Assembly (NCBI GenBank): GCA_016288465.1
Contig: JAEEZC010000232.1
Coordinates: 1 to 34,119, forward strand
DNA: 34,119 bases
DNA from: Verrucomicrobiota bacterium
Lineage (GTDB): Bacteria; Verrucomicrobiota; Kiritimatiellia; RFP12; UBA1067
Direction of reading: 5' to 3'
Part shown: in pieces, positions 571 to 25,019 of the stretch
Numbering within the stretch: the stretch's first letter is position 1
Layout: the number at the start of each line of letters is the position of its first letter
The notes under the pieces: generated by a model
What the model saw: the letters and a program-made list of their open reading frames with translations, nothing else
Databases searched by the model: none
Told to the model about the DNA's origin: nothing
Translations under genes and position numbers: made by a program

Positions 571-3500
571 ATGAAAAAGCTCTATGCCTCGTCCGCGGCA
601 TTCGCCCTGGCCGTTTCTCTTTGCGCACATGGCGCTTTGCCCCCTTTCACGACAGGCGGAGACGACGGCGTCGGCTGGAGTGTCCAGAGCAATGCCGTCT
701 GGCAGAGCGGCGCGATAGGCGACAACCAGTCCACCTGGCTCGAATTCACGGTTACGAACACCCCGTGTCTCGTGTTTTTCGACTGGAAGGTGAGTTCGGA
801 GTCCGGTTGGGACAAGCTGCATTACTATGTTGACGACGTCGAGGCGTCCGATTCGCCAATTAGCGGAGAAGTCGACTGGACGCACAATGCATTCGAGCTT
901 TACGGCACCAACACCTGCATAGTGCGCTTCGTATACGAAAAGGACGGCAGCTCAAGCGGAGGCTCGGACTGCGGATGGGTAAGAAACTTCTCCACGACGC
1001 AAGCAAAACCGCGCACACTGCTGCTAAACGAAAACACAGGAACGACAAACACGACAGAACATACCGTTTATGACGATGCGCCCCTTGGCGCGCTGCCGGT
1101 TCCGACGATGAGCGGCATGGTGTTCGTCGGCTGGTTTACAGACGCTGAAGGCGGAGAACTGGTGACGGCGGAGTCAATTGTCGACGCCTCCTGGACGACG
1201 CTCTATGCGCACTGGGAGGAATCGCCCTTCTCCGCGTCTGGCGGCGCGGCGGACTGGACCGTTGAAGCGGACGGCAGCTGGAAGAGCGGCGCGATAGGCG
1301 ACAGCCAGACCACATGGATAGAGATTATCGTCACCAATGCGCCGTGCATAGTGTCCTTCGACTGGAAAGTCAGCTCGGAGAGAAACTGCGACAAACTGCA
1401 CTGCCGTCTGGACGGAGCCGAAGTGCCAGATTCGCCCATTAGCGGAGAGAAGGACTGGAATGCAAGATCGCTGGAAATCACCGGAACGGAGACTTGCACA
1501 GTGCGTTTCGAATACGCAAAGGACGGCAGCGTACCCAGCGGTTCGGACTGCGGATGGGTAAGGAATTTCGCTATAGTCCCGATAGAAACGCGCACGGTGC
1601 TTCTGAACGCGAACGGCGGAACACTATCGACAGACAGCATTAGGGTTATAGAAGGCGCTGCCGTCGGCGAACTGCCTGTACCTAGCAAGAGCGGACATCT
1701 GTTCCTCGGATGGTTCACCGAATCGGAAGGCGGAGACAAGGTGACGGCGGAGTCCATTGTCGACGCTTCATGGACGACGCTATACGCGCACTGGGAGAAA
1801 TTGCCTTTCTCCGCAACAGGCGGCCATGCCGACTGGACGGTGGAAGGAGACGGAAGTTGGAAAAGCGGCGCCATAGGCCACAACCAGACAACATGGATAG
1901 AGATTGCCATTACCAATGCGCCGTGCCTGGTGTCTTTCGAATGGAAGGTCAGCTCGGAGAGCTACGACGAACTTCATTGCCTTCTGGACGGCGTCGACGT
2001 GCCAGGTTCGCCTGTTAGCGGAGAGGAAGACTGGACGACTAAATCCATTTTTGCTAACGTAACGGGAACTTGCACAGTTCGTTTCGAATACAAGAAAGAC
2101 GGGAGGACAAACGCAGGATACGACTGCGGCTACGTGAAGAATTTTTCAGTAGTCCCCGTAGTGACCCGCACGTTGCTCCTGAATGCGAACAACGGAGCGC
2201 CATCGCCATATAGCATTAGCGTCCTAGACGGCCAGGCAATTGGCGAGCTGCCCGTGCCAAGGATGGTCGGATATCAGTTCCTCGGATGGTTCACCGAATC
2301 GGAAGGCGGAGAGCTTGTGACGGGGGAGTCCATTGTCGACGCTTCCTGGACGACGCTCTACGCGCACTGGGAGGAATCCCCCTTCTCAGCGATGGGCGGC
2401 AATGCCGACTGGACGGTGGAGGCGGACGGAAGCTGGAAGAGCGGCGCGATAGGCGTCAACCAGACAACATGGATTGAAATTGACTTTACCAATGCACCGT
2501 GCAACGTGTCTTTCAGCTGGAAGGCAAGCTCTGAAAAGGGCTACGACAAGCTTCACTGCTATTTGGACGGAAGCGCAAACGATACCGTACCCGCAATAAG
2601 CGGAGAAATGCTCGAATGGGAAGACGTGTCCTTCCAGGTTCTAGAGGCCGGAATTCACACGGTAAGGTTTGCCTACACGACCGACGGCAGCAACAATCTA
2701 CACGACAACTGCGGCTGGGTGAAGGACTTCGCGGCAGTCTCCATCGAAATGCGCGTTCTGCCGCTGAACGCCAACGGCGGCGAGTGCGCGACTGACGAAA
2801 TTCTCGTAGGCGAAGGCGGAACCGTCGGCGAACTGCCGGTTCCGACATTGAGCGGGCACTTGTTCCTCGGCTGGTTCACGGAGCCGGAGGGCGGAGACAA
2901 GGTGACGGCGGCATCGACAGTCGACATTGGCTGGACGGAGCTTTATGCGCACTGGATGAAGTCCCCTTTCTCCGCGGCAGGAGGAGCGGACTACTGGTCC
3001 GTTGACGACGACGGAAGCTGGAGGAGCGGCGTTGCAGACGGCGGACAGTCGTCGTGGGCGGAAATAACGGTATCGAACACGCCATGCAGAGTGTCCTTCA
3101 AGTGGAAGACCAGCTCGGAGGGAACGAACGACACTCTGCGCTGCTACGTCGACTATGCCGGCGAAGGCGGCAGGGACGCCGCGCCGGCGATAAGCGGAAT
3201 CATGGACGACTGGGAAACGGTCAACCTTCTCATAGCCGAGCCTGGAATACACACTGTGCGGTTCGCATACGTCAAGAACGACAGCGTTGACGAGGGCGAA
3301 GACTGCGGATGGGTGAAGGAATTCAGGCCAGTCGACGTGCAACCGCGAACTCTGGAGCTGGACGCGTGCGGCGGCACCTGCGAGACGGATCAGAAGCCGG
3401 TCTGCAACGGATGCCTAGTCGGGGAGCTGCCGGTTCCTGTCTGGAGCGGCATGCTGTTCAGAGGCTGGTTCACGGAGGAGACAGGAGGCGACCGTGTGAC

Positions 3501-4920
3501 CGCGACCAACGTGACGGAGATTTCGTGGACGGCGCTCTACGCGCACTGGATGGCGTCCCCCTTCTCCGCAACTGGCGGCGACGCGGTCTGGACGGTCTCC
3601 GACGACGGAATCTGGCAGAGCGGCGCGATAACGAACTCCCAGAGCTCCTGGGCCGAGCTCACCGTCACGAACACGCCGTGCCTCATTTCCTTCAAGTGGA
3701 AGACAAGCTCGGAGAGGTACGACAAACTTCGCTGCTACATGGACTATGGGTCATACTACTCTTCAGACAGAGGCGAAATCAGCGGAATAAACGACGACTG
3801 GACCGAGGCATCATTCATGATCAACTGGGAAGGATCCCACACAATACGATTCCAGTACGAAAAAGACTACTCCGACAACAGCGCAGACGTGGGCGAAGAC
3901 TGCGGATGGGTAAAAGACTTCGCGGCCACGAAAACCCGCACTTTGTATTTTGACGCCAACGGAGGGGATGCGGTTGAGACCGAGACACTCGTTGCCGACG
4001 GCTTTCCCGTAGGAAGACTGCGCAATCCGTCAAGGGAATACCACAAGTTCCTAGGCTGGTTCACGGACGCGACAGGCGGCGAACATGTCACGGAGGACAC
4101 GCCGATGCAAGCCGCCTGGACGACGCTGTACGCGCACTGGGAAAGTTCGCCGTTCATCGAGCAAAGCGGAGCGCCTTGCTGGTTCCTCGACGCCGACGGC
4201 AGCTGGCGGAGCGGCGCGATAGGCGGCAACAGCTCAACTTGGGTCGAATTCGCGGTGACGAACGCGCCATGCACTGTGTCTTTCGACTGGAAGGTCAGCT
4301 CGGAGGCGGACTTCGACAAACTGTCCTGCACTCTGGACGGCGAGGTCGTGACAGAGCCGATCAGCGGAACGACCGACTGGAGCGTCATATCGTTCGAGAT
4401 CACCGAGGCAGGCGACCACAGAGTCCGAATAAAATACGAAAAGGACGGCGGCGGCGAGGGCGGCGAAGACTGCGGCTGGTTCAGAAACTTCACCGCCATC
4501 GCCGAAAGCTCTGCAGAAGAGGACGTCATCGTGGACGCAGGCGGCGGCAAGACGGTCCGCGTTCCGCAGGCGTGGCTCGCCAGGCATGCGATTGCGCTCG
4601 CGGCGCACAACGGCAACGCGGCGGAATACCTCCACTCTGCTGCCGCCAACGGACGGAAGGTCTGGGAGTGCTACGTGCTGGGACTTGACCCCGAAGAGAA
4701 GGACGACTTCAGGATCACGTCGTTCCCGATGAAGGCCGACGGCACGCCCGACCTGCAGAACATAACGATGCATCCGGCGCACAGCGACTGGAACCTCTCC
4801 GAAGCGCAGCCGAAGCTGAAAGGCGCGGCGCGTCTCGGCGGCGGCGCGGAGTGGCAGACGGTCACGGACGAGAACCAGTCGACGTTCCGCTTCTTCAGGC
4901 TCGAAGTCGTGCTGCCATAG
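571..4920 (+). CDS. Exported mosaic repeat protein with alternating beta-sandwich and InlB-type modules
   Basis: The 1,449-residue product begins with a Sec signal peptide (MKKLYASSAAFALAVSLCAHG), which is why ATG 571 is preferred over the in-frame ATG at 526. The body alternates two modules. Seven copies of a roughly 120-residue beta-rich module carry W-x-SGAI, a V-S-F-x-W-K-x-SSE strand and a closing DCGW-V-[RK]-[ND]-F signature. Six copies of a roughly 70-residue Listeria-Bacteroides (InlB B-repeat/Flg_new) module carry GELPVP, GWFT and YAHW. The YAHW tyrosines fall at residues 212, 405, 597, 792, 990 and 1187, a period of 192-198 residues. The C-terminus (about 1315-1449) is a separate domain with a W-x-C-Y-V-L-G-L-D-P motif and an RFFRLEV end, as found at the ends of surface repeat proteins in this phylum. 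The family suggests an adhesin or structural surface role. No catalytic residues are recognised and the ligand is unknown. Confidence 0.85.
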   Translation: MKKLYASSAAFALAVSLCAHGALPPFTTGGDDGVGWSVQSNAVWQSGAIGDNQSTWLEFTVTNTPCLVFFDWKVSSESGWDKLHYYVDDVEASDSPISGEVDWTHNAFELYGTNTCIVRFVYEKDGSSSGGSDCGWVRNFSTTQAKPRTLLLNENTGTTNTTEHTVYDDAPLGALPVPTMSGMVFVGWFTDAEGGELVTAESIVDASWTTLYAHWEESPFSASGGAADWTVEADGSWKSGAIGDSQTTWIEIIVTNAPCIVSFDWKVSSERNCDKLHCRLDGAEVPDSPISGEKDWNARSLEITGTETCTVRFEYAKDGSVPSGSDCGWVRNFAIVPIETRTVLLNANGGTLSTDSIRVIEGAAVGELPVPSKSGHLFLGWFTESEGGDKVTAESIVDASWTTLYAHWEKLPFSATGGHADWTVEGDGSWKSGAIGHNQTTWIEIAITNAPCLVSFEWKVSSESYDELHCLLDGVDVPGSPVSGEEDWTTKSIFANVTGTCTVRFEYKKDGRTNAGYDCGYVKNFSVVPVVTRTLLLNANNGAPSPYSISVLDGQAIGELPVPRMVGYQFLGWFTESEGGELVTGESIVDASWTTLYAHWEESPFSAMGGNADWTVEADGSWKSGAIGVNQTTWIEIDFTNAPCNVSFSWKASSEKGYDKLHCYLDGSANDTVPAISGEMLEWEDVSFQVLEAGIHTVRFAYTTDGSNNLHDNCGWVKDFAAVSIEMRVLPLNANGGECATDEILVGEGGTVGELPVPTLSGHLFLGWFTEPEGGDKVTAASTVDIGWTELYAHWMKSPFSAAGGADYWSVDDDGSWRSGVADGGQSSWAEITVSNTPCRVSFKWKTSSEGTNDTLRCYVDYAGEGGRDAAPAISGIMDDWETVNLLIAEPGIHTVRFAYVKNDSVDEGEDCGWVKEFRPVDVQPRTLELDACGGTCETDQKPVCNGCLVGELPVPVWSGMLFRGWFTEETGGDRVTATNVTEISWTALYAHWMASPFSATGGDAVWTVSDDGIWQSGAITNSQSSWAELTVTNTPCLISFKWKTSSERYDKLRCYMDYGSYYSSDRGEISGINDDWTEASFMINWEGSHTIRFQYEKDYSDNSADVGEDCGWVKDFAATKTRTLYFDANGGDAVETETLVADGFPVGRLRNPSREYHKFLGWFTDATGGEHVTEDTPMQAAWTTLYAHWESSPFIEQSGAPCWFLDADGSWRSGAIGGNSSTWVEFAVTNAPCTVSFDWKVSSEADFDKLSCTLDGEVVTEPISGTTDWSVISFEITEAGDHRVRIKYEKDGGGEGGEDCGWFRNFTAIAESSAEEDVIVDAGGGKTVRVPQAWLARHAIALAAHNGNAAEYLHSAAANGRKVWECYVLGLDPEEKDDFRITSFPMKADGTPDLQNITMHPAHSDWNLSEAQPKLKGAARLGGGAEWQTVTDENQSTFRFFRLEVVLP

Positions 4921-10071: not shown

Positions 10072-11217
10072 ATGAAAACCAAGATACTCCAATTCGGCGA
10101 GGGGAACTTCCTCAGGTGCTTCATTGACTGGATGGTCGAGAAGGCCAACCGGAACGCGGGCTTCGACGGAGCCGTGCAGATAATCCAGCCCATAGGCGAC
10201 GAGCTGAGCGCGCCTTCGAAGGCCCTGAACGCGCGCGGCGGCCGCTACCACACGTGCCTAAGGGGAATCTCCGGCGGCAGGACGATCGAGGAGATCGACG
10301 AAGTCACGTGCGTCAGAGGCGTAGACGTCGCGGCGAACGTCGAGCGGTACGCCGCCGAGCCCGAGCTGCGGTTCGTCGTCTCCAACACGACCGAGGCCGG
10401 CATACAGTACGTCAAGGGCCAGGACACGTTCCCTGCAAAGGTCCTGAGGCTGCTCAAGGCGCGCCGAGCGGCAGGGCTGCCGGGTCTGGTGTTCATTCCG
10501 TGCGAGCTCATCGAGCACAACGGCGACAACCTCAGGAGATGCGTACTCGCGCACTGCGCGGACGATGGCGACGCCGATCTCGCGGCGTGGATTGAGAGGG
10601 AATGCGTCTTCTGCTCCACGCTTGTGGACCGCATCGTCGCAGGCCGTCCCGACCCTGAGTCCGCCGAGCGATACGCCGAGAAGCTGGGCGAGAGAGACGA
10701 GGTGCTCGTCTGCGGAGAGCCCTTCCACTTCTTCGTCGTCGAGACGCCGGAAGGCTTCGACCTTGAGGCCGAGCTACCCCTCGCAAAGGCCGGCGTGAAC
10801 GTCGTATACACACGGGACATGCAGCCCTACCGCACGCGCAAGGTCCGCTTCCTCAACGCCACGCATACGACAATGGTCTATCTTGGGCTTGAACGCGGCT
10901 TCACGGAAGTCGCCCAGTGCATAGAGGACCCGGAGTTCAACAAGTTCGTGCGCAAGGTCGTATTCGAAGAGATATTCCCGACCGTAGCCCTTCCCGACGC
11001 CGAGAAGAAGGAATACGCCGAAAGCGTGCTGGAGCGCTTCGCCAATCCGTTCGCCCACCACAAGCTCGAGTCCATAGCGCTCAACACGATAGCGAAGTGG
11101 AAGGCTCGCTGCCTTCCTGTCGTATGCGACTACGCCAAGGCGTTCGGCAGGCTGCCTGAGGCGATGATGCAGGGCTACGACGCGATCGCGAGGCACTACG
11201 ACAGCTTAGGGCGCTGA
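10072..11217 (+). CDS. uxaB: Tagaturonate reductase (altronate oxidoreductase), C-terminally short
   Basis: 381 residues. The enzyme reduces tagaturonate to altronate with NADH, in the galacturonate branch. It belongs to the long-chain mannitol dehydrogenase family: FGEGNFLRCF (8-17) is the nucleotide-binding start, RFVVSNTTEAGI and FIPCELIEHNGDNL follow, and K257-V-R-F-L-N262-A-T-H265 is the conserved catalytic/substrate-binding cluster. E. coli UxaB is near 483 residues; here the helical C-terminal domain stops soon after FANPFAHHKLESIALN-x-IAKW, about 90-100 residues early. The stop is followed directly by uxaA with its own Shine-Dalgarno sequence, so this is a short form and not an obvious recent frameshift. 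A fructuronate-reductase role (UxuB) is possible, but the neighbouring altronate dehydratase favours UxaB. Confidence 0.85.
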   Translation: MKTKILQFGEGNFLRCFIDWMVEKANRNAGFDGAVQIIQPIGDELSAPSKALNARGGRYHTCLRGISGGRTIEEIDEVTCVRGVDVAANVERYAAEPELRFVVSNTTEAGIQYVKGQDTFPAKVLRLLKARRAAGLPGLVFIPCELIEHNGDNLRRCVLAHCADDGDADLAAWIERECVFCSTLVDRIVAGRPDPESAERYAEKLGERDEVLVCGEPFHFFVVETPEGFDLEAELPLAKAGVNVVYTRDMQPYRTRKVRFLNATHTTMVYLGLERGFTEVAQCIEDPEFNKFVRKVVFEEIFPTVALPDAEKKEYAESVLERFANPFAHHKLESIALNTIAKWKARCLPVVCDYAKAFGRLPEAMMQGYDAIARHYDSLGR

Positions 11218-11230
11218 AGCCGGAGGCCGC

Positions 11231-12604
11231 ATGATAATCAACCCGAAGGACAACGTCGAGATACGCGACGACGGGCACAAGTACGCGCTGCGCGACATCG
11301 CCGAGGGCGAGGACGTGGTGAAGTACGGCATGCCGATAGGCCATGCGACGCGGGCCATCCGCAAGGGCGAGCACGTGCACGTGCACAACGTGAAGACGAA
11401 TCTCGGAGAAGTGCTCGAATACCGCTACGAGCCGGACTTCGAAGACGTCGCGCCCATGCCGCCGCCGACAATGACGGCGTTCCGCCATCCCGACGGACGA
11501 GTCGGCATCCGCAACGAGCTATGGATCGTACCGACCGTAGGATGCGTGAACTCGCTTTGCGAGCGGCTCGCGGCCGCCGTCGGCGGCATTGCGCTTTCGC
11601 ATCCGTACGGATGCTCGCAGCTAGGCAGGGACCACGAGACCACTGCCGGACTGCTCGCGGCACTTTGCAGGCATCCGAACGCCGGCGGCGTGCTCGTCGT
11701 CGCGCTCGGATGCGAGAACAACACGCTCGAAAGCTTCAAGGCAAGGCTTGGGATCGGTCCCGACGACGCGGACGGGGCTCGCGCGGGCCTGAACATGCGG
11801 TTTCTGCGGGCGCAGGACGCAGGGGACGAATACGAGCGCGGGCTGGCGCTGCTACGGGAGCTGGACGCGGCGCGCCCCAAGACGCGAGTGGAGGTTCCCG
11901 TCTCGGAGCTTGTCGTCGGTCTGAAGTGCGGCGGCTCCGACGGATTCTCGGGGCTCACTGCCAATCCGCTTGTCGGCCGCTTCTCGGACTGGCTGGCTGC
12001 GCGCGGAGGCTCGACGGTGCTTACCGAGGTCCCGGAGATGTTCGGCGCGGAGACGCTGCTGATGAAGCGCTGCCGGACGCGCAGCGTGTTCGAGAAATGC
12101 GTCAGAATGATCAACGACTTCAAGGGCTACTACGCCTCGCACAACCAGGTCTGCTACGAGAATCCCTCTCCAGGCAACAAGGCTGGAGGCATAACGACGC
12201 TTGAGGACAAGTCGCTTGGATGCGTGCAGAAAGGCGGCTCCGCCCCTGTCGAAGACGTGCTGGACTACGGCGAATGCGTAAGGTCGCACGGCCTCTCGCT
12301 TCTCACCGGCCCCGGCAACGATCTGGTCGCCTCGACGGTCCTTGCCGCGGCAGGATGCCATCTGATACTGTTCACGACCGGGCGGGGCACTCCCTTCGGC
12401 TGCGTCGTGCCGACGGTCAAGGTCGCCACAAACGACGCCCTCGCGGCCAGCAAGCCCAACTGGATCGACTGGAACGCGATGTCCTGCCCAGACACGGAGG
12501 CCTTCGCGGCGAAGGTCGTGTCCATCGCATCGGGCGAACCCGCCCGCAACGAGACTAACTGCGCGCGCGGAATCGCGATTTTCAAGGACGGGGTGACGCT
12601 CTGA
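11231..12604 (+). CDS. uxaA: Altronate dehydratase
   Basis: 457 residues. The enzyme dehydrates D-altronate to 2-keto-3-deoxygluconate. An N-terminal SAF-type domain (about 1-75, with HKYALRDIAEGEDVVKYG and IGHATRAIRKGEHVHVHN) is fused to the large catalytic domain. That domain begins with FRHPDGRVGIRNELWIVPTVG and contains HPYGCSQLG, LKCGGSDGFSG and the family signature NPSPGNKAGGITTLEDKSLG. Its cysteines and acidic residues may hold the Fe/Mn cofactor. GGAGG lies 4 nt before the ATG and only 13 nt separate it from uxaB, so the two are co-transcribed. E. coli UxaA is about 495 residues; no functional motif appears missing. Confidence 0.93.
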   Translation: MIINPKDNVEIRDDGHKYALRDIAEGEDVVKYGMPIGHATRAIRKGEHVHVHNVKTNLGEVLEYRYEPDFEDVAPMPPPTMTAFRHPDGRVGIRNELWIVPTVGCVNSLCERLAAAVGGIALSHPYGCSQLGRDHETTAGLLAALCRHPNAGGVLVVALGCENNTLESFKARLGIGPDDADGARAGLNMRFLRAQDAGDEYERGLALLRELDAARPKTRVEVPVSELVVGLKCGGSDGFSGLTANPLVGRFSDWLAARGGSTVLTEVPEMFGAETLLMKRCRTRSVFEKCVRMINDFKGYYASHNQVCYENPSPGNKAGGITTLEDKSLGCVQKGGSAPVEDVLDYGECVRSHGLSLLTGPGNDLVASTVLAAAGCHLILFTTGRGTPFGCVVPTVKVATNDALAASKPNWIDWNAMSCPDTEAFAAKVVSIASGEPARNETNCARGIAIFKDGVTL

Positions 12605-12648
12605 CGCGAATGCGCCGTCCAAACACGCATTACGGAGAAACACAGGCA

Positions 12649-13749
12649 ATGGAATCACTAAACGTAAAGCCGGCGGAGAGCTGCCGGTGGGACGCCGCCA
12701 GCCTCGGCGAAATCATGCTGAGACTCGACCCGGGAGACGGGCGCATACACACAGCCCGCGAGTTCAGGGTATGGGAAGGCGGCGGAGAATACAACGTGGT
12801 GCGCGGCCTTAGGCGCTGCTTCGGCATGAGGACGACTGCCGTTACCGCGTTTGCCGACAATCCGGTCGGCAGGCTTGTCGAGGACTTCATGCTTCAGGGC
12901 GGCGTCGACGTCTCGCACGTCAAATGGACTCCATACGACGGAATCGGCAGAACGGTTCGAAACGGTCTTAACTTCGTGGAACGGGGCTTCGGGTGCCGCG
13001 GCGCCAGAAGCTGCGCCGACCGCGGCCTTACGGCGGTCAGCCAGCTTAGGCGCGGCGACATCGACTGGGACGGCCTGTTCGGCCGCGAAGGCGTTCGCTG
13101 GTTCCATACCGGCGGCATATTCGCGGCGCTTTCGGAGACGACCGCAGAAGTCGCCGTGGAGGCGCTGAAGGCGGCGAAGCGGCACGGCACGGTCACGTCG
13201 TACGACCTCAACTACCGCGCAAGCCTCTGGAAGTCCATCGGCGGACAGGCGCGCGCGCAGGAGGTCAACCGCGAAATCGCCAAGTACGTGGACGTCATGA
13301 TCGGGAACGAGGAGGACTTCACGGCCGCACTCGGCATCGAAGTGGAGGGCGTGGACAAGAACCTCACCACCCTTCCCGTAGAAGGCTTCCGCAGGATGAT
13401 CGAAAAAGCCGTGTCGGCATACCCGAACTTCAAGGCGGTCGCGACGACGCTTCGCTCGGTCAAGTCTGCGACAGTCAACGACTGGTCGGCGATCTGCTGG
13501 TACAAGGGCACGCTCCACGAGTCAATCAGGCGCCCGGGCCTCGAAATTTACGACCGAGTCGGCGGCGGAGACTCCTTCGCGTCCGGTCTCGTCTACGGCT
13601 TCATGACGTTCGACGACGCCGAGAAGGCCGTCAACTACGGCGCTGCGCACGGTGCGCTGGCGATGACCACGCCTGGCGACACTTCGATGGCGACTCTCTC
13701 GGACGTCGAGAAGCTTGTAGGCGGCGGCTCGGCTCGCGTCGACCGCTAG
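12649..13749 (+). CDS. kdgK: 2-keto-3-deoxygluconate kinase, PfkB family
   Basis: 366 residues from ATG 12649, chosen for CGGAGA upstream and because LGEIMLRLDP near the N-terminus is the normal first strand of KDG kinases. The enzyme phosphorylates 2-keto-3-deoxygluconate to KDPG using ATP. Family landmarks are GGGEYNVVRGLRR (substrate/sugar lid region), SYDLNYRASLW, NEEDF, and the C-terminal PfkB signature DRVGGGDSFASGLVYG with catalytic base D308. It closes the uxaB-uxaA-kdgK operon, 44 nt after uxaA. The downstream KDPG aldolase is not in the window. Its stop codon shares CTAG with the convergent SDR gene. Confidence 0.9.
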   Translation: MESLNVKPAESCRWDAASLGEIMLRLDPGDGRIHTAREFRVWEGGGEYNVVRGLRRCFGMRTTAVTAFADNPVGRLVEDFMLQGGVDVSHVKWTPYDGIGRTVRNGLNFVERGFGCRGARSCADRGLTAVSQLRRGDIDWDGLFGREGVRWFHTGGIFAALSETTAEVAVEALKAAKRHGTVTSYDLNYRASLWKSIGGQARAQEVNREIAKYVDVMIGNEEDFTAALGIEVEGVDKNLTTLPVEGFRRMIEKAVSAYPNFKAVATTLRSVKSATVNDWSAICWYKGTLHESIRRPGLEIYDRVGGGDSFASGLVYGFMTFDDAEKAVNYGAAHGALAMTTPGDTSMATLSDVEKLVGGGSARVDR

Positions 13750-14512: not shown

Positions 14513-15601
14513 TCAGGCCCTGTAGCCGGCCTCCTTGAGCTTGTTGATGACCGAGTCGGGATCCTGCGCCTTCGTGATGAGCTCCTCGTAGGAGATGAGG
14601 CCCTTCTTGTACAGGTCGGTAAGATGGGAGTCGAGCGTCTGCATGCCGTGCTTTACGCCGGTCTGCAGATCGGACTTGATCATGTTCGTCTTGTTATCGC
14701 GGATGCGCGAGCAGATGGCGTCGGTGCGCGTCATGATCTCAAACGCTGCAACACGCCCGTCGACCTCGCCGTTCGCTCCGAGCCGCGGCAGAAGTATCTG
14801 CGAAATGACGGCCTGAAGGCCCGCGGCGAGCTGCGTGCGGATCTGCGGCTGCTGGTTCATCGGGAAGGCGTCGACGATACGGTCGATCGTCTCCGCCGAG
14901 CCGGTGGTGTGCAGCGTTCCGAAGACGAGGTGGCCGGTTTCAGCCGCCGTGATGGCCGCGGCGATGGTCTCAAGGTCGCGCATTTCGCCCACGAGAATTA
15001 CGTCGGGGTCCTGACGCAGCGCGCGGCGGATCGCCTCGGCGAAGGAAGGCACGTCCTGGCCGATTTCGCGCTGGGTCACGAGCGAATTCTTGGAAGTGTG
15101 GTAGAATTCGATAGGGTCTTCGATCGTGACGATGTGGACGTTGCGCTCCTGGTTGATGACGTCGATCATCGAAGCGAGCGTCGTCGACTTGCCCGAGCCG
15201 GTAGGCCCTGTGACGAGAATGAGGCCGCGAGGCTTGAAGAGAAGCTCCTTCACGACCGACGGCAGGCCGATCTGCTCCATGGAAAGAAGCGTGGACGGAA
15301 TCTGGCGGAGCACGGCGCCGTAGCGCCCCCTCTCCTTGAACACAGACACACGGAAGCGCGTTCCGTCAGGGTGCGCAAGGGCGAAGTCGGCGCCGCCGTT
15401 GCGAAGAACCTCGCCCATCTGCTCTTCGGAGGATATCTCCTTCACAAGCCTCAGCGTGTCCTCCTCCGTAAGCGACTCGTCTGCTATCGGCAGAAGCTCG
15501 CCATGCACGCGCAGTTTCGGCGGCATGTGCGCTCTGATGTGCAAATCCGAGGCGCCCTCGTCGATTGTCGCCTGCAGAAGCTCTTCCATTCTAACGTCCA
15601 T
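14513..15601 (-). CDS. pilT: Type IV pilus retraction ATPase PilT
   Basis: 362 residues. PilT hexamers drive pilus retraction at the inner membrane. Seen in order are an N-terminal PAS-like domain (GASDLHIRAHMPPKLRVHGE), Walker A GPTGSGKST (about 130-138), the Asp box VTIEDPIEF, Walker B DVILVGEMRD, the His box FGTLHTTGSAETIDRIVDAF, and the C-terminal PilT regions AGLQAVISQILLPR and RIRDNKTNMI with GMQTLD. The start at 15601 is fixed by a strong GGGAGGAG (15606-15613), with its GGAGG core 6 nt upstream; the longer open frame has no homology before this point. It follows pilB by 44 nt on the same strand. Confidence 0.94.
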   Translation of the reverse strand: MDVRMEELLQATIDEGASDLHIRAHMPPKLRVHGELLPIADESLTEEDTLRLVKEISSEEQMGEVLRNGGADFALAHPDGTRFRVSVFKERGRYGAVLRQIPSTLLSMEQIGLPSVVKELLFKPRGLILVTGPTGSGKSTTLASMIDVINQERNVHIVTIEDPIEFYHTSKNSLVTQREIGQDVPSFAEAIRRALRQDPDVILVGEMRDLETIAAAITAAETGHLVFGTLHTTGSAETIDRIVDAFPMNQQPQIRTQLAAGLQAVISQILLPRLGANGEVDGRVAAFEIMTRTDAICSRIRDNKTNMIKSDLQTGVKHGMQTLDSHLTDLYKKGLISYEELITKAQDPDSVINKLKEAGYRA

Positions 15602-15645
15602 TATACTCCTCCCTAGCCGGTTTTTGGTGTAGGCGGCGCCACGCG

Positions 15646-17328
15646 TCAGTCGGCGTCGCCCATGGTCACGCGCAGGACCTCCGAAAGCGAGGTCATGCCC
15701 GAGGCGACCTTCAGCATTCCGTCCTCGCGCAGCGTGCGCATGCCCATCTCGCGCGCACGCTGCCTGAGCAGCGTAGCGGGCGCGTGGTCGAAGATGAGCC
15801 TCTGGATCGTGTCGTCCACCTTGAATATCTCGAAGATGCCCTTGCGGCCCTTGTAGCCGGACTTGCCGCACTTGTCGCAGCCGACGCCATGGTACATGTG
15901 GTCGGGCACCTGCACGTTCTTCGACCCGCTCGCAAGGCCCGTCAGCATCTTCATCTCGCGGTCGGTGGGCGTGTAGGACTCCTTGCACTTCTCGCAGATC
16001 GCCCTGACGAGACGCTGGGCCATCGCGGCGCGCAGAGCCGACGCGACGAGGAACGGCTTCACGCCGATATCGAGAAGTCGCGTGACGGCGGACGGCGCGT
16101 CGTTGGTGTGAAGCGTCGAGAACACGAGGTGGCCCGTGAGAGCGGCTTCCATCGCGATGTCGGCCGTCTCGGCGTCACGAATCTCGCCGATCATCACGAT
16201 GTTCGGCGCCTGACGGAGAATCGACCTCAGCGCAGCCGAGAAGTCGAGGCCGACGTCCTTGTTCACCTGCACCTGGTTGATGCCGGACATCTGGTATTCG
16301 ACAGGGTCCTCGACCGTGATGAGCTTCTTGTCGGGCGTGTTGATCTGGCCAAGGCAGGCGTACAGGGTCGTGGTCTTGCCCGAGCCGGTAGGCCCGGTGA
16401 CGAGCACGACGCCGTCAGGCAGCTTGATCAGGCGCTCGAACGTAGTCTGGTCGTCAGACAGGAAGCCGAGCTGCGGAAGGCCGAGCGACAGGTTCGACTT
16501 GTCGAGAATTCGCATTACGATCGACTCGCCGTGGTTCGTCGGCACCGACGAGACGCGCAGGTCGAGGTCCTTCCCGCCGACGCTGATCTGGATTCGCCCG
16601 TCCTGGGGAATGCGCTTCTCGGAGATCTTCATCTTCGACATGATCTTGAAGCGGGAGAGGATGGCGCCCTGGAGCCGCTTCGGCGGCGAGTCCATCTTGC
16701 GGAGCGCGCCGTCGATGCGATAGCGCACGCGGAACTCCTTCTCCATCGGCTCGATGTGGATATCGGACGCCTTCATCTTGATCGCCGTGGTGATGATCAT
16801 GTTGGCGAGCTTGATGACCGCCGAGTCGTCGCCGGTCGCGACGTCGTCGCCGAGGCCCTCCTCGTCGCGCGTCGTGACGTCGGCCGCGCCTGAATCGGCG
16901 TAGAGCTTCGCCTGCACGGCCTTCGCCTCGGCCAGCGGACAGAGCACCGCGTCGATGTCGCGACCGTGAAGCACGTATCGCAGCGAGTCGATCGCGTCGT
17001 AGCCCATCGGGTCGATCAGCGCCACGGTTATCGAATCGTCGGTCACGATAACGGGCACTACCCCGTACCGCTTCGAGATCTCGGCAGTGACCACGGTCGT
17101 GACGTCTTCTTTGATCGCGTCCGCGTCAATGTGGCAGTATTTGAGGCCGAACTGGTCGGCGATAGTGCCGAGAACCGTATCCTCGTCAAGTGCCCCTCCG
17201 GCTACGAGGACGTCAAGCGTCGTCTCGTTGTCGGCCTTCATGGAGGTCGCTGCCGCCTCGACCTGCTCGGCAGTGAGATAGCCGCGCTCGGTCAGCAGCT
17301 GGACCACATATTCGTCGTTGCTCGTCAT
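15646..17328 (-). CDS. pilB: Type IV pilus/type II secretion assembly ATPase PilB (GspE family)
   Basis: 560 residues. The enzyme powers pilin or pseudopilin polymerisation at the inner membrane. The N-terminus (about 1-150) is a MshEN domain (LLTERGYLTAEQVEAA, then FGLKYCHID and ISKRYGVVPV). The ATPase core has ASDIHIEPMEKEFRVRYRID, Walker A GPTGSGKTTT (about 310-320), VEDPVEYQM, Walker B NIVMIGEIRD and HTNDAPSAVTRL. A tetracysteine zinc site (CEKC then CDKCG) precedes GYKGRKGIFEIF. It is followed by pilT and an SDR. No pilins, PilC or secretin are in the window, so pilus versus type II secretion cannot be settled, though the PilT neighbour favours a retractile pilus. Confidence 0.93.
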   Translation of the reverse strand: MTSNDEYVVQLLTERGYLTAEQVEAAATSMKADNETTLDVLVAGGALDEDTVLGTIADQFGLKYCHIDADAIKEDVTTVVTAEISKRYGVVPVIVTDDSITVALIDPMGYDAIDSLRYVLHGRDIDAVLCPLAEAKAVQAKLYADSGAADVTTRDEEGLGDDVATGDDSAVIKLANMIITTAIKMKASDIHIEPMEKEFRVRYRIDGALRKMDSPPKRLQGAILSRFKIMSKMKISEKRIPQDGRIQISVGGKDLDLRVSSVPTNHGESIVMRILDKSNLSLGLPQLGFLSDDQTTFERLIKLPDGVVLVTGPTGSGKTTTLYACLGQINTPDKKLITVEDPVEYQMSGINQVQVNKDVGLDFSAALRSILRQAPNIVMIGEIRDAETADIAMEAALTGHLVFSTLHTNDAPSAVTRLLDIGVKPFLVASALRAAMAQRLVRAICEKCKESYTPTDREMKMLTGLASGSKNVQVPDHMYHGVGCDKCGKSGYKGRKGIFEIFKVDDTIQRLIFDHAPATLLRQRAREMGMRTLREDGMLKVASGMTSLSEVLRVTMGDAD

Positions 17329-18179: not shown

Positions 18180-19769
18180 TCAGCCCTTGAAGCCGTCAAG
18201 AACGGTCTGCCGCGTGCGCTTCGACTGCCGCGGATAGTCCAGCGTGTAGTGGAGCCCGCGGCTCTCGTGACGCTTCTGCGCCGACCTGACGATCAGCTCC
18301 GCGCACACCGCAAGGTTGCGCAGCTCCAGCGTGTCCGGTGTCACGAGATAGCGGAAGTAGTAGTCGCGTATCTCGCGTCTGAGCGTGCGGATCCTGTGCG
18401 CGGCGCGCGCCAGGCGCTTGTTCGTGCGGACGATGCCCACGTAGTCCCACATCAGCCTGCGAATCTCGTCCCACATGTGCGACACGAGCACCGCCTCGTC
18501 CGGCGGCACGGCGTTGCCGATCTTCCAGTCCGGTATCCTGGGCGGCCGCGCGCCGAAGCTCTCCGGATGCGGACCAAGCCTCGCCGCCGTCATCCTGGCG
18601 CAGACGAGCGCCTCCATGAGCGAGTTCGACGCCAGCCGGTTCGCTCCGTGCAGCCCCGTGCACGCGCACTCGCCGACGGCGGAAAGTCCCTTTATCGAAG
18701 TGCGCCCGTCCGTCGCCGCCTGGATGCCGCCGCACATGTAGTGCGCCGCCGGCACGATCGGTATCAGGTCGGAGGCCATGTCTATGCCGAACTCCATGCA
18801 CTTCTGGTAGATGTTGGGGAAGCGCGTCATGAGGTACTTGCGCCCCTTGCTGCGGATGTCCAGGAACATGCAGTCGTCGCCGGTGCGCTTCATCTCGCTG
18901 TCGATCGACCTGGCCACGATGTCGCGCGGCGCAAGCGAGCCGCGCGGATCGTACTTCTTCATGAACTCCCTGCCATGCTTGTTCACAAGGACCGCACCTT
19001 CGCCGCGCACCGCCTCGCTGATGAGGAAGCGCTTCGCCTGCGGATGGTAGAGGCAGGTGGGATGGAACTGCACGAACTCCATGTTCTCTATCTTCGCGCC
19101 GGCGCGCCACGCGATCGCAATGCCGTCGCCGGTCGCGGTGTCGGGGTTGCACGTGTACAGATAGACCTTGCCGCAGCCGCCTGTCGCAAGTATCGTGTTC
19201 GGCGTGCGCACCGCGTATATCTCGCCAGTCTCCTTGTCGAGCACGTACGCGCCTACGCACCTGTTCTCGCCCTTGAGCCCTATGCGGCGCGTCATCACGA
19301 GATCGATGACTATCGCCTTCTCGCGGACGTCGACACCCGACCGCCTGATCTTCCTGATCATCGCCGCTTCGCACTTCTCGCCCGTGATGTCGCCCGCGTG
19401 CAGTATGCGCCGCGCGCTGTGCCCGCCCTCCCTGGTGAGGTCGAGTTCTCCGTCGGGCCGCCGCGAAAACCTCACGCCGCAGTCGATGAGGTCGCGTATC
19501 CCCTCGGGCGCATGCTCGCATATCTCGTGGACCACCTCGCTCTTGCCGAGCCAGGCCCCCGCTATCATCGTGTCGCGCTCGTGGTTGCCGAACGTGTCCG
19601 CCTTGTCCATGACGCAGCAGATGCCGCCCTGCGCGAAGTTCGTGTTGCAGTCCTGCAGCCTCCCCTTTGTCGCAAGCACGACCTTGCCGTACGACGCGAG
19701 GTGCAGCGCGCTCATGAGCCCGGCCATGCCGGACCCGACGACGAAATAGTCGCAGTCTATCGTTCTCAT
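18180..19769 (-). CDS. nadB: L-aspartate oxidase
   Basis: 529 residues. The FAD enzyme oxidises aspartate to iminoaspartate, the first step of NAD synthesis with NadA. The dinucleotide-binding site VVGSGMAGLMSAL is at residues 10-22. TNFAQGGICCVM, HSARRILHAGDITG, FVQFHPTCLY, LISEAVRGEGAVLVN, GSLAPRDIVARSID and the NadB signature GLHGANRLASNSLMEALV follow. The C-terminal helical domain ends RGLHYTLDYPRQ. Fumarate reductase or succinate dehydrogenase flavoproteins are close relatives, but HGANRLASNSL favours NadB. Its ATG overlaps the TGA of the GH31 gene (ATGA), so it is translationally coupled to a glycosidase, an unusual setting for nadB. No nadA or nadC is in the window. Confidence 0.92.
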   Translation of the reverse strand: MRTIDCDYFVVGSGMAGLMSALHLASYGKVVLATKGRLQDCNTNFAQGGICCVMDKADTFGNHERDTMIAGAWLGKSEVVHEICEHAPEGIRDLIDCGVRFSRRPDGELDLTREGGHSARRILHAGDITGEKCEAAMIRKIRRSGVDVREKAIVIDLVMTRRIGLKGENRCVGAYVLDKETGEIYAVRTPNTILATGGCGKVYLYTCNPDTATGDGIAIAWRAGAKIENMEFVQFHPTCLYHPQAKRFLISEAVRGEGAVLVNKHGREFMKKYDPRGSLAPRDIVARSIDSEMKRTGDDCMFLDIRSKGRKYLMTRFPNIYQKCMEFGIDMASDLIPIVPAAHYMCGGIQAATDGRTSIKGLSAVGECACTGLHGANRLASNSLMEALVCARMTAARLGPHPESFGARPPRIPDWKIGNAVPPDEAVLVSHMWDEIRRLMWDYVGIVRTNKRLARAAHRIRTLRREIRDYYFRYLVTPDTLELRNLAVCAELIVRSAQKRHESRGLHYTLDYPRQSKRTRQTVLDGFKG

Positions 19770-21394
19770 GGGATGCGCTCGTAGCGCGGCAGGCGCGCAA
19801 GTGGTACGTTCTCAAGGCGCAGCGTCTTCGGCCCTTCGTGAGTCTCGCCGAGGTCGTCGCGCCACTTTCCGGCCGGCAGCTCCACGGTCTTCGCGTCGTC
19901 GGGCGTCACGACCGGCGCGACGAGCCAGCGGCTGCCGAGCATGAACTGCTGCATCGGACGGTTGAAGCCCTGGTGAGGGAACTCGTACTCCATCGCCCTG
20001 ACGATGGGCTCGCCCGTGACGGACGCGTGCCGCGCTGTCTCGAGGATGTACGGCGCGAAGTCCACGTGCAGCTGCGCGAACGCGCGGCAGAGCTCCACGC
20101 CGGACTTCGAAAGGTGCCGCCAGGGCGCCGGCGAGAACTGCATCATCGGCATGAGCGCCTGCATCGCCGCCGAGCGCACGAACAACTTCTCGTCTATCCT
20201 GCCTCCGACGAAGGAGAGCTCAAGGCCCCCGCCCACCATGTCCGCCACAAGATACGGGCAGCCGAGAAGGCCCGCCGCGACGACCTGTGGTATCACTGTG
20301 TCCTGCGCCCTGCTGCCTGTCCACGCATGCGCGCGGTCGTTGAGGCGCGTCACGAGCGGAAGGCCTCCGCACTTCCAGCTCACGCGTATCTCGTGGTACG
20401 GAAACTCCCTCGCCGCAAGCTCCGCGTAGAGGCGCGTGTAGTCGACGGGGTCCGCCTTCTCGTCGTGGAAACGGCAGTCCTCGATGAACATGGCGGGGTC
20501 TCCCGCGTCGAACTTGAAGCCCGTTATGCCGTACTCCGCCGCGAAGTCGCGCAGGGTCTTCGCGTAGAACTCGGCCGCTTCCGGCTTGGTGAGGTCGTAG
20601 ACCGCGCTGATGCCGCTCCACCAGCGCACCACCGCCGCGTCGTGCGAGCCGGGCTTTCTGCGGTAGGCGAGGTAGTCGAGCCCGTTGAGCTTCGGGTGGT
20701 AGCGCAGCCTCTTGTACTCGCGGCTGTCCGGAGTCACGAAGTGCGCCGTCCAGATGAGAGACTTCCAGCCATGCGCGTTGATGCGGCCGAACATCCCCCT
20801 GGGATCGGGAAAGTCCTTCGCGTAGAACTCGTACGAGCCCTGGTGCGAAAGCCACCCGCCGTCCATCATGTACACGCCGCACTGGAACCCGCTCTTCGCA
20901 AGCTCCTCCGTGAACGCGTCCACGGACTTCTGGTTCGTTCCGTTGAGGAATATCTCGATCCAGTTGTTCCACTGCGGCAGCGAGAAGAAGATGTCGGGCG
21001 GCGTCCTGCCCTCGAAGCGCATGTGCGCCTTCGCCGCCGCGAGATAGGCGTCCTTCAGGGTCTTTCCGGCGACGACCGGCTCGACCCTCTCCACGTCGGA
21101 GTCGAGAACGAGCCTGCCCGCCCTGAACTCGTAGCCGAACGGCTTCTCACTCCACACGTAGCGCCCGCACGACGACACCAGAAGAGGCGAGGACGTGTTG
21201 CCGTGGCCGCGCAGGTCTATCCGCCTGCTGTCCGCGATGCCGTACGGCTGGCTCTGGCCGTCCGCGCCGCCGCCGCCCCACCACCGCTCGCCCTCCAAAA
21301 GCGGTATCTCGGTGACGACCGGCACGGCGGCCAGCCGCATCGCGACGAGCGCCGCCACGGAGACGGACAGCGCAAGGCCAGGAGATGACTTCAT
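19766..21394 (-). CDS. Exported GH31-family glycoside hydrolase
   Basis: 542 residues from ATG 21394, which opens a signal peptide (MKSSPGLALSVSVAALVAMRLAAVPV) and has AAGGAAC upstream; the longer open frame upstream is antisense-like and overlaps the GH28 gene. GH31 enzymes are retaining alpha-glycosidases (glucosidase, xylosidase, galactosidase or sulfoquinovosidase activities). The barrel shows SLPQWNNWIEIFLNGTNQ, CGVYMMDGGW, HGWKSLIWTAHFVTPDS and the nucleophile strand GITGFKFDAGD near residue 295. The C-terminal sheet has FMLGSRWLVAPVVTPDDAKTVELPAGKW. At 542 residues it is shorter than many GH31 proteins, with a reduced N-terminal domain. ATGA overlaps join it to the GH28-like gene upstream and nadB downstream. 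Linkage specificity cannot be read from the sequence. Confidence 0.85.
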   Translation of the reverse strand: MKSSPGLALSVSVAALVAMRLAAVPVVTEIPLLEGERWWGGGGADGQSQPYGIADSRRIDLRGHGNTSSPLLVSSCGRYVWSEKPFGYEFRAGRLVLDSDVERVEPVVAGKTLKDAYLAAAKAHMRFEGRTPPDIFFSLPQWNNWIEIFLNGTNQKSVDAFTEELAKSGFQCGVYMMDGGWLSHQGSYEFYAKDFPDPRGMFGRINAHGWKSLIWTAHFVTPDSREYKRLRYHPKLNGLDYLAYRRKPGSHDAAVVRWWSGISAVYDLTKPEAAEFYAKTLRDFAAEYGITGFKFDAGDPAMFIEDCRFHDEKADPVDYTRLYAELAAREFPYHEIRVSWKCGGLPLVTRLNDRAHAWTGSRAQDTVIPQVVAAGLLGCPYLVADMVGGGLELSFVGGRIDEKLFVRSAAMQALMPMMQFSPAPWRHLSKSGVELCRAFAQLHVDFAPYILETARHASVTGEPIVRAMEYEFPHQGFNRPMQQFMLGSRWLVAPVVTPDDAKTVELPAGKWRDDLGETHEGPKTLRLENVPLARLPRYERIP

Positions 21395-23487
21395 TTGACT
21401 GTTGTTCCTTTCATGCCTTCTTTCACAAGCGACAGCTCCTTGAAGCATATCTCGTCGGCAGGCGCCGACGACTTTATCGACATTGCCACAAGCTCGGTCA
21501 CCCCAAGGTCGAAGTCGAGGTCGAGCGAGGCCTCCATCCCGTGCCACGCTCCGTCGGCCGGGCAGACGAACTCGGCCCTCTCGGTCTTCTCGTTCGAGAA
21601 GACCGCCGCCTTCAGCTTCACCGGCTCGGCGTTCCCGGCCTTCGCCTGGAAGGAAAGCCTGTATCTTCCGTTGCCGTGGCGAAGGAACGCGTCCGTGAAT
21701 ATGTTGACGATGCCGGCGTTCCGCTCGCACTGCTTGAGGCGGTAGACTCTCTTTCCGTCCTCCATGCCGACGGCGTCGAACTTGACGAGCCACGACGGAC
21801 TCCTCTGCCACGCGCTCCGCGTCGCCGGCCTGTCGGCAAGCAGGTTCTCCCCGTCGTCCGGCTGCTCCTCGCGCAGCTCGCCCTTCCGGCGGTCAACCTT
21901 GCGGCAGTCGCGCTGGAGCGACGCTCCGATGTAGCGCTTGTAGGGGCATGTCCAGCCGACTTCGTGCCTGTCGGGAACGGCCGGTATTGCGCTCTTCGCA
22001 AGGACGTTCGTGACCGAAAGCCGCATCCGCTCGGGATTCACGACGCACTGCCCGGGTATCGCGTCAAGCCTCTCGCCCCCTACCCAGAGGTTCGTTATGG
22101 CAATCGTGTAGTTGTCGGTGTCGAGCAGCTTCGCGGAGTCGTGGCGGACCACCACCGCCGCTCCGCCGCGCTGCCCTATCGTGCGCCAGTCGTCCTTTCC
22201 TGTCGCATGAGGCACCGCGACGTTCTCGAAGCCGAAGACCTTCGGCAGCGTGCCCATGTTGCCGCCGACGAAGAATCGCGCGTAAAGCACGCAGTCCACA
22301 GCCGACAGGTTCTTTATGTGGAACTGCTGCCTTTGGTGCCTGAGGTCCTGAGGCCCGGGCTCCTTCTTCGCCTCGCCAGTCCCGGTCTCGCTCCACTTCG
22401 TGTTCCGCCGCAGCACTCCGTTGTAGATGTTCTCGATTGTCCCTTCGTCGGCCCTGAACACGTCGACGTTCTCCATCTCCACGCCGTAGTTGCTGCCCTG
22501 CGGGAATATCGCCTTGCACGACGTCCCGATCGCGACGTTGCGGAAGAGGGCCCCGCCGCCGATGCCGCTCACGACGAGCGCGTTGTCGCCCACGTAGAGC
22601 CACGCGCCGTCCACCGTCAGCCCCCGCCCGCCGCACGTTATCCCGTCCGAGCACATCATCGACGCAAGCGCGCGGACGTTCCTGAGCGTCACGCCGTTCG
22701 CGAACGTGCAGTAGTTGAACGTGCGGGCGTCGACGAGCTTCACGTCCTCAACCGTCACGCCGGGCGCCGATATCCTCATGAACCCGCGCGACTGGTTCTT
22801 CACCTGCTCGAAGCGGAACACGTCCGAGAACGGATCCAGCATCATGCCGCGCCCGTGGACGTAGGCGCCCGGACTCCTCACGACGAGACGGGAGTTTAGC
22901 ACTGCGCCGGGCGCAATGTAGACCTCCTTCACGGGCGGCTCGACCACCGTCACGCCGTCCTCTCCCGGCGGATCTGTCCACTTGTCGATGTAAAGGACGC
23001 CAGGCGCCCCTTTCGCCGGCACCTTCGACGGATCCTCCGGCGCGTCTGCGAAGACGGAAAGTATCGTCTTGTCGTAGTCGTTGAGCCTTATGCCGAAGGA
23101 CGCAGGCTTTTCCAGCGTCACGGATATCACGCCGTTCGAGAACGAGCTCCTGAGCCCGAGCCGGGACGGAAAGACCGCGTAGCTCTGCACATCCTCCGCA
23201 ACCACTATGTCGACGCGCACCGGGCCGCCGGAAAACGCGAACTCGCAGAACCTGCGGTTGACGTCCCCTCCGCGCGTCCGCGTGCTCAGCGGGGACTTCT
23301 CGCAGTGGTTGTAGACGGTGACCATCTTCTTGGCGTCGCCCTGCACAACCCGCACGGCGTACGCGTAGTCCCGCTCTATCTCACGAGGATATTCAGGATA
23401 GACGACTATCTCCGCCGCCGCGGACGTCGCGAACGCCGCCGCCATCAGACCGATCGTCCACTGAACCCTGCGCATTTTCCCGAGCAT
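21391..23487 (-). CDS. Exported right-handed beta-helix protein, GH28/GH49-like
   Basis: 698 residues. ATG 23487 is preferred because AAAGGA (23494-23499) is 6 nt upstream; ATG 23493 would abut it. A signal peptide (MRRVQWTIGLMAAAFATSAAA) is followed by a beta-sandwich domain (NHCEKSPLSTRTRGGDVNRR, RLNDYDKTILSVFADAP). The helix, from about residue 170, holds the GH28-like segments GAVLNSRLVVRSPGAYVHGRG, MMCSDGI (near 280) and YVGDNALVVSG (near 300). In polygalacturonases the last would read GDD, so one catalytic Asp is Asn here. A jelly-roll-like C-terminal domain (SFQAKAGNAEPVKLKAAVFSN) may bind carbohydrate. It is the first gene of the GH28-GH31-nadB-ABC operon. It could be a polygalacturonase-like or dextranase-like enzyme, or an inactive binder. 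Confidence 0.75.
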   Translation of the reverse strand: MLGKMRRVQWTIGLMAAAFATSAAAEIVVYPEYPREIERDYAYAVRVVQGDAKKMVTVYNHCEKSPLSTRTRGGDVNRRFCEFAFSGGPVRVDIVVAEDVQSYAVFPSRLGLRSSFSNGVISVTLEKPASFGIRLNDYDKTILSVFADAPEDPSKVPAKGAPGVLYIDKWTDPPGEDGVTVVEPPVKEVYIAPGAVLNSRLVVRSPGAYVHGRGMMLDPFSDVFRFEQVKNQSRGFMRISAPGVTVEDVKLVDARTFNYCTFANGVTLRNVRALASMMCSDGITCGGRGLTVDGAWLYVGDNALVVSGIGGGALFRNVAIGTSCKAIFPQGSNYGVEMENVDVFRADEGTIENIYNGVLRRNTKWSETGTGEAKKEPGPQDLRHQRQQFHIKNLSAVDCVLYARFFVGGNMGTLPKVFGFENVAVPHATGKDDWRTIGQRGGAAVVVRHDSAKLLDTDNYTIAITNLWVGGERLDAIPGQCVVNPERMRLSVTNVLAKSAIPAVPDRHEVGWTCPYKRYIGASLQRDCRKVDRRKGELREEQPDDGENLLADRPATRSAWQRSPSWLVKFDAVGMEDGKRVYRLKQCERNAGIVNIFTDAFLRHGNGRYRLSFQAKAGNAEPVKLKAAVFSNEKTERAEFVCPADGAWHGMEASLDLDFDLGVTELVAMSIKSSAPADEICFKELSLVKEGMKGTTVK

Positions 23488-23542
23488 CCACATTCCTTTG
23501 TTTAGTTGTCCGACCCTTTCCTAAGACGGACTTGAGTCTGGT

Positions 23543-23551
23543 ATTTTACCA
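23543..23551 (-). promoter_or_regulatory. Extended -10 promoter of the GH28-GH31-nadB-ABC operon
   Basis: On the minus strand TGG precedes TAAAAT (23548 down to 23543). The ATG at 23487 lies 55 nt further on, so this operon has an ordinary leader with a Shine-Dalgarno sequence, unlike most neighbouring genes. Confidence 0.5.
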
Positions 23552-23587
23552 AATTCCGCGGCGAAAAGCTAACAGACCCGCGCCGCT

Positions 23588-23603
23588 CCGCGCATAGGCG
23601 CGG
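23588..23603. other. Short GC hairpin between divergent promoters
   Basis: CCGCGC (23588-23593) and GCGCGG (23598-23603) form a perfect 6-bp stem with a 4-nt loop. It lies just upstream of the DUF975 -10 and between the two divergent promoters. TTTT follows at 23607-23610, but no plus-strand gene ends here, so it may be an operator or chance. Confidence 0.25.
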
Positions 23604-23609
23604 CAGTTT

Positions 23610-23618
23610 TGGTATAAT
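23610..23618 (+). promoter_or_regulatory. Extended -10 promoter of the DUF975 gene
   Basis: TGG precedes TATAAT (23613-23618). The ATG at 23647 is 28 nt downstream and has AAGGA at 23636-23640, with 6-nt spacing, so this gene has a leader and a ribosome site. Confidence 0.6.
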
Positions 23619-23646
23619 ACTCGCCACCTAACAATAAGGATGCACA

Positions 23647-24486
23647 ATGAGATCTAGCAAGGAAATTCGACAGGAAGCCTGGCGCATCGTCATGGACACG
23701 ACATGGCCGCGGAAGATACTGTGCAACGCCTTCGTGCTCTATTTGATACTCATCGGCGCCGCTATCGCAATTTCGGCGATCTACTGTAGCGCCGGCATAC
23801 AGACATGGGAATCTTTCAGAGAGGCTCAGCAAGCAGCCCGGCGCGCTGGCCTTGAGATGACAGTGCCGTCGATTGCCGAAGCATGTCGAATGACATGTGC
23901 AAGCCTGTGTTCATCGTTCATACAGCAGATATTGCAAGGCATCCTCGCGTTCGGAATCGCCACTACGCTCGTCAAATGCATCAGAAACGACAGCGCGAAC
24001 TGGTTCTCTGCCGCGTTCAGCGGCTTCAAGCGTCCTTTCGGGCTTCTGGGGCTGACGTTGCTCATCGCCCTTAAGATGTTCCTCTGGGCGCTGCTTTTCA
24101 TCATTCCCGGGATCATCGCCGCCATCCGCTATACATTCGCGATGTACGTCAAGGCGGAGGATCCCGAAATGGGCGCTAGCGACTGCATCAGACGCAGCTG
24201 CGAACTCATGGATGGCCGCAAGATGAAGTATGTGATGTTCTGCCTGTCCTACATTGGATGGGCAATCCTCACGATAGCTCCGATTTTCATCGCATTTGCC
24301 GTATGCCAACCTGACAGCAAGGCGGAAGAAGTCTCCATGGCAATGGGCGTGACGATGGGCGTCTGCTTCGTGGTCACATTCTTGATGATGATCTTCACCA
24401 GCATCTACATGGCAATCGGAAGCGCCGTCTTCTACAGAGACGCCAAAGCCGAACTCTATGGTCCCCGCGACAACCATATGGTGTAG
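23647..24486 (+). CDS. DUF975 family integral membrane protein
   Basis: 279 residues with about five to six hydrophobic segments (around 26-46, 85-108, 133-160, 197-217 and 230-262) and a charged N-terminus (MRSSKEIRQEAWRIVM). The family signature is the stretch ALLFIIPGIIAAIRYTFAMY followed by a polar loop AEDPEMGASDCIRRSCELMDGRKMKYV and FCLSYIGWAIL. The function of DUF975 proteins is not known; they sit in the cytoplasmic membrane. The gene is a monocistronic plus-strand island between two minus-strand operons, with its own promoter and Shine-Dalgarno sequence. Its codon use is somewhat less GC-rich than that of its neighbours. Confidence 0.85.
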   Translation: MRSSKEIRQEAWRIVMDTTWPRKILCNAFVLYLILIGAAIAISAIYCSAGIQTWESFREAQQAARRAGLEMTVPSIAEACRMTCASLCSSFIQQILQGILAFGIATTLVKCIRNDSANWFSAAFSGFKRPFGLLGLTLLIALKMFLWALLFIIPGIIAAIRYTFAMYVKAEDPEMGASDCIRRSCELMDGRKMKYVMFCLSYIGWAILTIAPIFIAFAVCQPDSKAEEVSMAMGVTMGVCFVVTFLMMIFTSIYMAIGSAVFYRDAKAELYGPRDNHMV

Positions 24487-24588
24487 CCTCCTCGTCTCCG
24501 CGTGAGGCCACCACATCGCCATAACTGCCGGAATCTTGCGAAAAGACAGTCATAACGCCCCAAAGGCCATGCCGGGGACAAGAGCTTA

Positions 24589-24616
24589 TTGACATAGTAG
24601 CATTGATATAGTAGCT
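24589..24616. repeat. 14-bp tandem duplication
   Basis: Two adjacent 14-bp units begin TTGACATAG and TTGATATAG and match at 12 of 14 positions (24589-24602 and 24603-24616). The duplication abuts the stop codon of the winged-helix fragment and is AT-rich compared with its surroundings. The rest of the gap from 24487 to 24588 shows only weak stem-loops. Confidence 0.6.
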
Positions 24617-24885: not shown

Positions 24886-25000
24886 GGCTTGAGCCCTACC
24901 CGCACTGCAGAATACTCGCTCGCAAGCCCGAGACGCGTCCGTGGCTCTACGAGAACCTCAGAAAACACCTCAAAGAACCCGCGAAATGAAGGAGCCGAAA

Positions 25001-25019
25001 GGCTGGTACTACACCAGCC
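25001..25019 (-). terminator. Stem-loop at the end of the exported-enzyme operon
   Basis: GGCTGGT (25001-25007) and ACCAGCC (25013-25019) form a perfect 7-bp stem with a 5-nt loop that contains the stop codon of the metallo-beta-lactamase-fold gene. On the minus strand only TTT follows, and a competing AGCC-GAAA-GGCT tetraloop hairpin overlaps it (24993-25004). Its place at the end of the operon suggests termination or 3'-end protection, but the T-tract is weak. Confidence 0.35.

Follow-up and report, generated by a model that had tools for sequence, protein, structure and literature searches.

A predicted Kiritimatiellia surface adhesin of alternating jelly-roll and InlB-type modules with a candidate class-specific sorting domain at its C-terminus

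The gene at positions 571–4920 of the window, that is, of the whole 34,119-nucleotide stretch of DNA that we analyzed, probably (about 55% in our estimate) encodes a multivalent surface adhesin of the glycan-binding type that is exported by the Sec pathway and ends in a C-terminal export or retention domain. Seven jelly-roll modules resembling the VesC carbohydrate-binding module (CBM) and MAM domains would serve as the binding heads and six InlB beta-grasp modules as the spacers, so the array would present multiple sites of weak binding; the C-terminal domain, which many extracellular Kiritimatiellia proteins share, may guide the protein through the outer envelope or hold it there.

The window is one entire contig of a metagenome-assembled genome (MAG; G000, 3.5 Mb in 393 contigs, 83% complete). 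The frame 526/571–4920 (+) is open; when it is read from the ATG at 571, the protein has 1449 residues with the following features:

571–636, + strand: signal peptide (MKKLYASSAAFALAVSLCAHGA), from the sequence itself
640–1011, + strand: beta module 1, from the module alignment (HMM match 643–1005)
1012–1221, + strand: InlB/List_Bact_rpt module 1, from PF09479 and the module alignment
1222–1587, + strand: beta module 2, the copy whose sequence went to AlphaFold2, from alignment, HMM and AlphaFold2
1591–1800, + strand: InlB/List_Bact_rpt module 2, from PF09479 and the module alignment
1801–2163, + strand: beta module 3, from alignment and HMM
2167–2376, + strand: InlB/List_Bact_rpt module 3, from PF09479 and the module alignment
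2377–2748, + strand: beta module 4, from alignment and HMM
2752–2961, + strand: InlB/List_Bact_rpt module 4, from PF09479 and the module alignment
2962–3342, + strand: beta module 5, from alignment and HMM
3346–3555, + strand: InlB/List_Bact_rpt module 5, from PF09479 and the module alignment
3556–3933, + strand: beta module 6, from alignment and HMM
3937–4146, + strand: InlB/List_Bact_rpt module 6, from PF09479 and the module alignment
4147–4509, + strand: beta module 7, adjoining the C-terminal domain, from alignment and HMM
4528–4917, + strand: C-terminal domain (WECYxxGLDPE ... RFFRLEVVLP), a candidate sorting/anchoring domain, from alignment and relatives; the stop codon is 4918–4920

The N-terminus from the ATG at 571 is a normal Sec signal peptide, in which inspection of the sequence found no lipobox; this supports an exported protein of the surface type and so agrees with the initial annotation, which had described a modular surface protein. 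That annotation had also proposed a strict alternation of seven beta-sandwich modules with six InlB-type modules, and the alignments agree: PF09479 (List_Bact_rpt) matches six stretches (whole-protein E 1.4e-69; 230.5 bits against a gathering score of 27), which places the second module type above the curated cut-off. Here the members of this family (List_Bact_rpt/InlB B-repeat; PF09479, TIGR02543) do not make up a tandem of their own but alternate one-to-one with another domain. The YAHW motif recurs at residues 212, 405, 597, 792, 990 and 1187, that is, with the expected spacing of 192–198 residues, and DCGW, reported as ending each alternating module, is located at seven sites (residues 133, 326, 518, 713, 911, 1110 and 1300) when the close variants DCGY and NCGW are included. 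Beta modules 2–7 are 41–56% identical to module 1, with 28 columns invariant over all seven; a single-module query against the whole genome retrieves exactly these seven, down to E 5e-82, and nothing else comparably strong. This seven-module repeat anatomy is far beyond chance. The description in terms of two module types holds for the arrays but not for the last ~130 residues, which fit neither type.

The beta module had been described as a family that could not be named, and no Pfam or NCBIfam model was found for it in searches with the whole protein, single modules and family alignments. Its AlphaFold2 model, calculated from an input alignment of 11 modules taken from two relatives as well as the window, is a jelly-roll with seven long strands (pLDDT 92.3, pTM 0.86). 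Among PDB structures, Foldseek ranks the C-terminal beta-sandwich domain (CBM type) of Vibrio cholerae VesC highest over the full length (6bqm; TMq 0.78, rmsd 2.7), followed by CBM6, CBM35, CBM61 and MAM domains (meprin, neuropilin). The check suggested in the initial annotation, a profile search and structure prediction of one DCGW module, gave no curated family but a match to a solved fold, the VesC CBM; this is half of what that annotation had named as counting against its proposal. With a profile of 28 modules collected across many genomes, residues 407–484 of VesC are the second best match among PDB sequences, at only E 0.07, and the SSExxxDxL strand motif is kept in both VesC and the beta-module family; the modules are thus linked by fold, and perhaps loosely by sequence, to domains of the carbohydrate-binding type. 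(A PDB sequence search with a narrow profile returned antibody light chains, which we dismissed as chance.) The CBM-type domain of VesC comprises residues 381–511, and its binding of carbohydrate was proposed without a test in the paper that describes it (PMC7771236); by analogy, carbohydrate may be the ligand of the beta modules. Both proteins are secreted; however, the VesC domain is present in single copy on a serine protease that is exported by a T2SS and that ends in GlyGly-CTERM, which the window protein lacks. The jelly-rolls of CBM6, CBM35, CBM61 and MAM share the overall fold with the beta module, but none gives a match above a Pfam gathering score; CBM_6 (PF03422) matches one of the seven modules at E 7e-4 and is not listed in the whole-protein search, so membership in that family is not assigned.

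Across 94 modules, the conserved residues comprise three tryptophans, the SSE..D and KD positions and D(C/A)GW. The cysteine at the DCGW position is conserved and often the lone cysteine of an extracellular module, with Ala or Arg in its place in some copies; a conserved disulfide through this residue is unlikely, and we rejected it as a family trait. The relatives recovered by sequence are Kiritimatiellae MAGs from the rumen. Of 145 related Kiritimatiellia genomes, 79 have the beta module, as do some genomes of the phylum beyond this class. Its companions on the same proteins include InlB repeats, BspA-type leucine-rich repeats (LRR_5), BACON, CHB_HEX_C_1 and parts resembling subtilisin. In viruses, both fold comparison and tblastn connect the module to phage tail/virion proteins, one of which bears the label VesC.

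The fold neighbors allow other functions for the modules. MAM domains of the jelly-roll fold mediate protein–protein contact, which counts against reading the modules as lectins; modules for protein–protein or cell–cell adhesion would be in keeping with the meprin and neuropilin MAM domains among the fold matches, and also with the DALI neighbors of the VesC domain, which include meprin and RPTP-mu (PMC7771236). However, the CBM families rank equal to or higher than MAM, Pfam gives no MAM match, and the conserved set of MAM-type cysteines and disulfides is absent (most modules in the family contain 0–2 cysteines), so we regard a MAM-like function as improbable. The modules might instead be rigid, ligand-free beads in a mainly structural stalk or matrix protein whose function derives from its length. 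Seven similar modules with strict spacing under purifying selection are compatible with such a stalk, and InlB repeats serve as spacers in many adhesins; but no distinct head domain would then remain to do the binding, and the fold neighbors are mostly CBMs. A stalk is unlikely in our judgment.

The divergence of the repeats bears on a further alternative, that of the initial annotation, in which near-identical repeats recombine and their number shifts between strains, as in a phase- or antigen-variable adhesin. The repeats are in tandem, copies 2 and 3 have 36 exact bases in common, and the number of beta modules joined to the same C-terminal domain ranges from 1 to 7 between species (one genome per species). 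The copies are not near-identical, however: 300-nt copies have 67–80% DNA identity to the reference copy, and the longest exact match is ≤25 bp for every pair other than copies 2 and 3. Pairwise comparisons of the beta modules give dS values of 0.76–2.2, with synonymous sites near saturation, and dN/dS values of 0.18–0.59, well below 1; the copies thus stem from old duplications and evolve under constraint. When the 94 modules are placed in a tree, the seven copies in the window cluster, with one copy from a related protein of another genus nested within them (support 0.88), so the expansion probably predates the split from that genus. Because the repeat units are whole codons (multiples of 3), their gain or loss alters the length of the protein but cannot switch the gene off; also, no long homopolymer, simple sequence repeat or microsatellite, sizeable inverted repeat or invertible element was found in the gene or just upstream. 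A variable adhesin is thus very unlikely, and the protein resembles a multivalent adhesin that evolves slowly rather than a switchable antigen. Least probable of all is that the seven-module array is an artefact of assembly: the MAG is fragmented and incomplete, as noted above, but at the DNA level the copies are at least ~20% different and share no exact stretch longer than 36 bp, the frame is open across 4.4 kb, and related architectures are present in other assemblies. As a separate observation, approximately four tandem units of ~22 nt (TACACGG...TTCC) are located at 188–281, ~290 nt upstream of the adhesin gene. This unit recurs on two other contigs of the same genome (C204 and C213) and is thus a dispersed repeat.

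The C-terminal domain (residues 1320–1449, ~130 residues; …WECYxxGLDPE…RFFKVxVxLP) aligns with the ends of other proteins. A profile built from ten sequences detects it in 123 of the 145 relatives; in a sample of the phylum, it is found in 50 of 64 members of the class vs 9 of 131 others, and in the latter weakly (best E 1.3e-7). After duplicates and training rows were taken out, 33 copies remained: 28 end ≤3 residues from the stop codon, two others stop short of it by 7 and 34 residues, and the remaining three have a clearly internal location. One copy (L101; G011:C25:10049–10402) has an in-frame TGA near its end, which probably reflects gene decay or a mistake in assembly. The domain is carried by extracellular proteins that otherwise differ (LRR, BACON, CHB_HEX and beta-helix proteins), and one beta module usually precedes it, partly an effect of the many loci that were fetched via that module. 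The copy in the window matches no curated Pfam or NCBIfam model, and its AlphaFold2 model is poor (pLDDT 47). Some copies contain an EF-hand-like DxDxDG...EY.AGTDP motif with sub-cut-off similarity (E 8e-6) to the TSP3_bac/Amuc_1099 family (NF042425); however, the alignment covers only ~50 residues, and the copy in the window, from which the acidic loop has been lost, is not matched.

A conserved domain at the C-terminus of otherwise unrelated exported proteins is what is expected of a sorting domain, and the simplest reading is that of a candidate domain for sorting or anchoring that is specific to the class; the poor AlphaFold2 model and the three internal copies speak against this reading. 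Domains of this kind, the CTDs, serve the T9SS in Bacteroidota. Like the T9SS C-terminal domains, GlyGly-CTERM and PEP-CTERM, the Kiritimatiellia domain is conserved at the C-terminal end of varied exported proteins; unlike them, it has no hydrophobic helix or basic end, and the copy in the window has no match to a curated model. It is possible, and we suggest this only tentatively, that the domain is an undescribed Kiritimatiellia export/anchoring signal for a dedicated outer-envelope pathway, perhaps T2SS/T4P-type machinery: T2SS/T4P-type secretins are present in 58 of the 58 relatives searched. For the T9SS protein SprA, a search of the relatives that had no positive control gave no match, and we draw no conclusion from it. 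Any tie between the domain and a secretion machine is likewise conjectural. Genes encoding PilT-like and PilB/GspE-like ATPases (T2SSE; MshEN in the second) are located at 14513–17328 (−), which places T4P/T2SS-type machinery on this contig as well. A search of the literature found nothing on point for surface proteins or sorting domains of Kiritimatiellia.

The contig also encodes functions in glycan catabolism, including GH31, GH20, GH78 and an altronate dehydratase. Such neighbors are in keeping with a glycan-binding protein, but their association with the adhesin gene is location on the same contig only. Hexuronate-type genes (a mannitol-dehydrogenase-type reductase, an altronate/galactarate dehydratase and a PfkB kinase) and the GH31, GH20 and GH78 glycoside hydrolases are located at 10072–13749 (+) and 19766–31992 (−); their annotations suggest a context of plant-glycan degradation. 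At 32839–34119 (−), a large protein is cut by the end of the contig; Pfam gives no match for it, and it looks like a further extracellular protein with repeats.

Kiritimatiellia are common gut and rumen bacteria that are mostly uncultured. Modular adhesins are a known kind of protein; the C-terminal domain is undescribed, and it is the part most worth following. With a false lead toward phase variation removed, the jelly-roll family and the class-wide C-terminal domain, neither of which has a database model, would make many ‘hypothetical’ surface proteins recognizable, and the C-terminal domain may provide a direct handle on how Kiritimatiellia cells place proteins outside.
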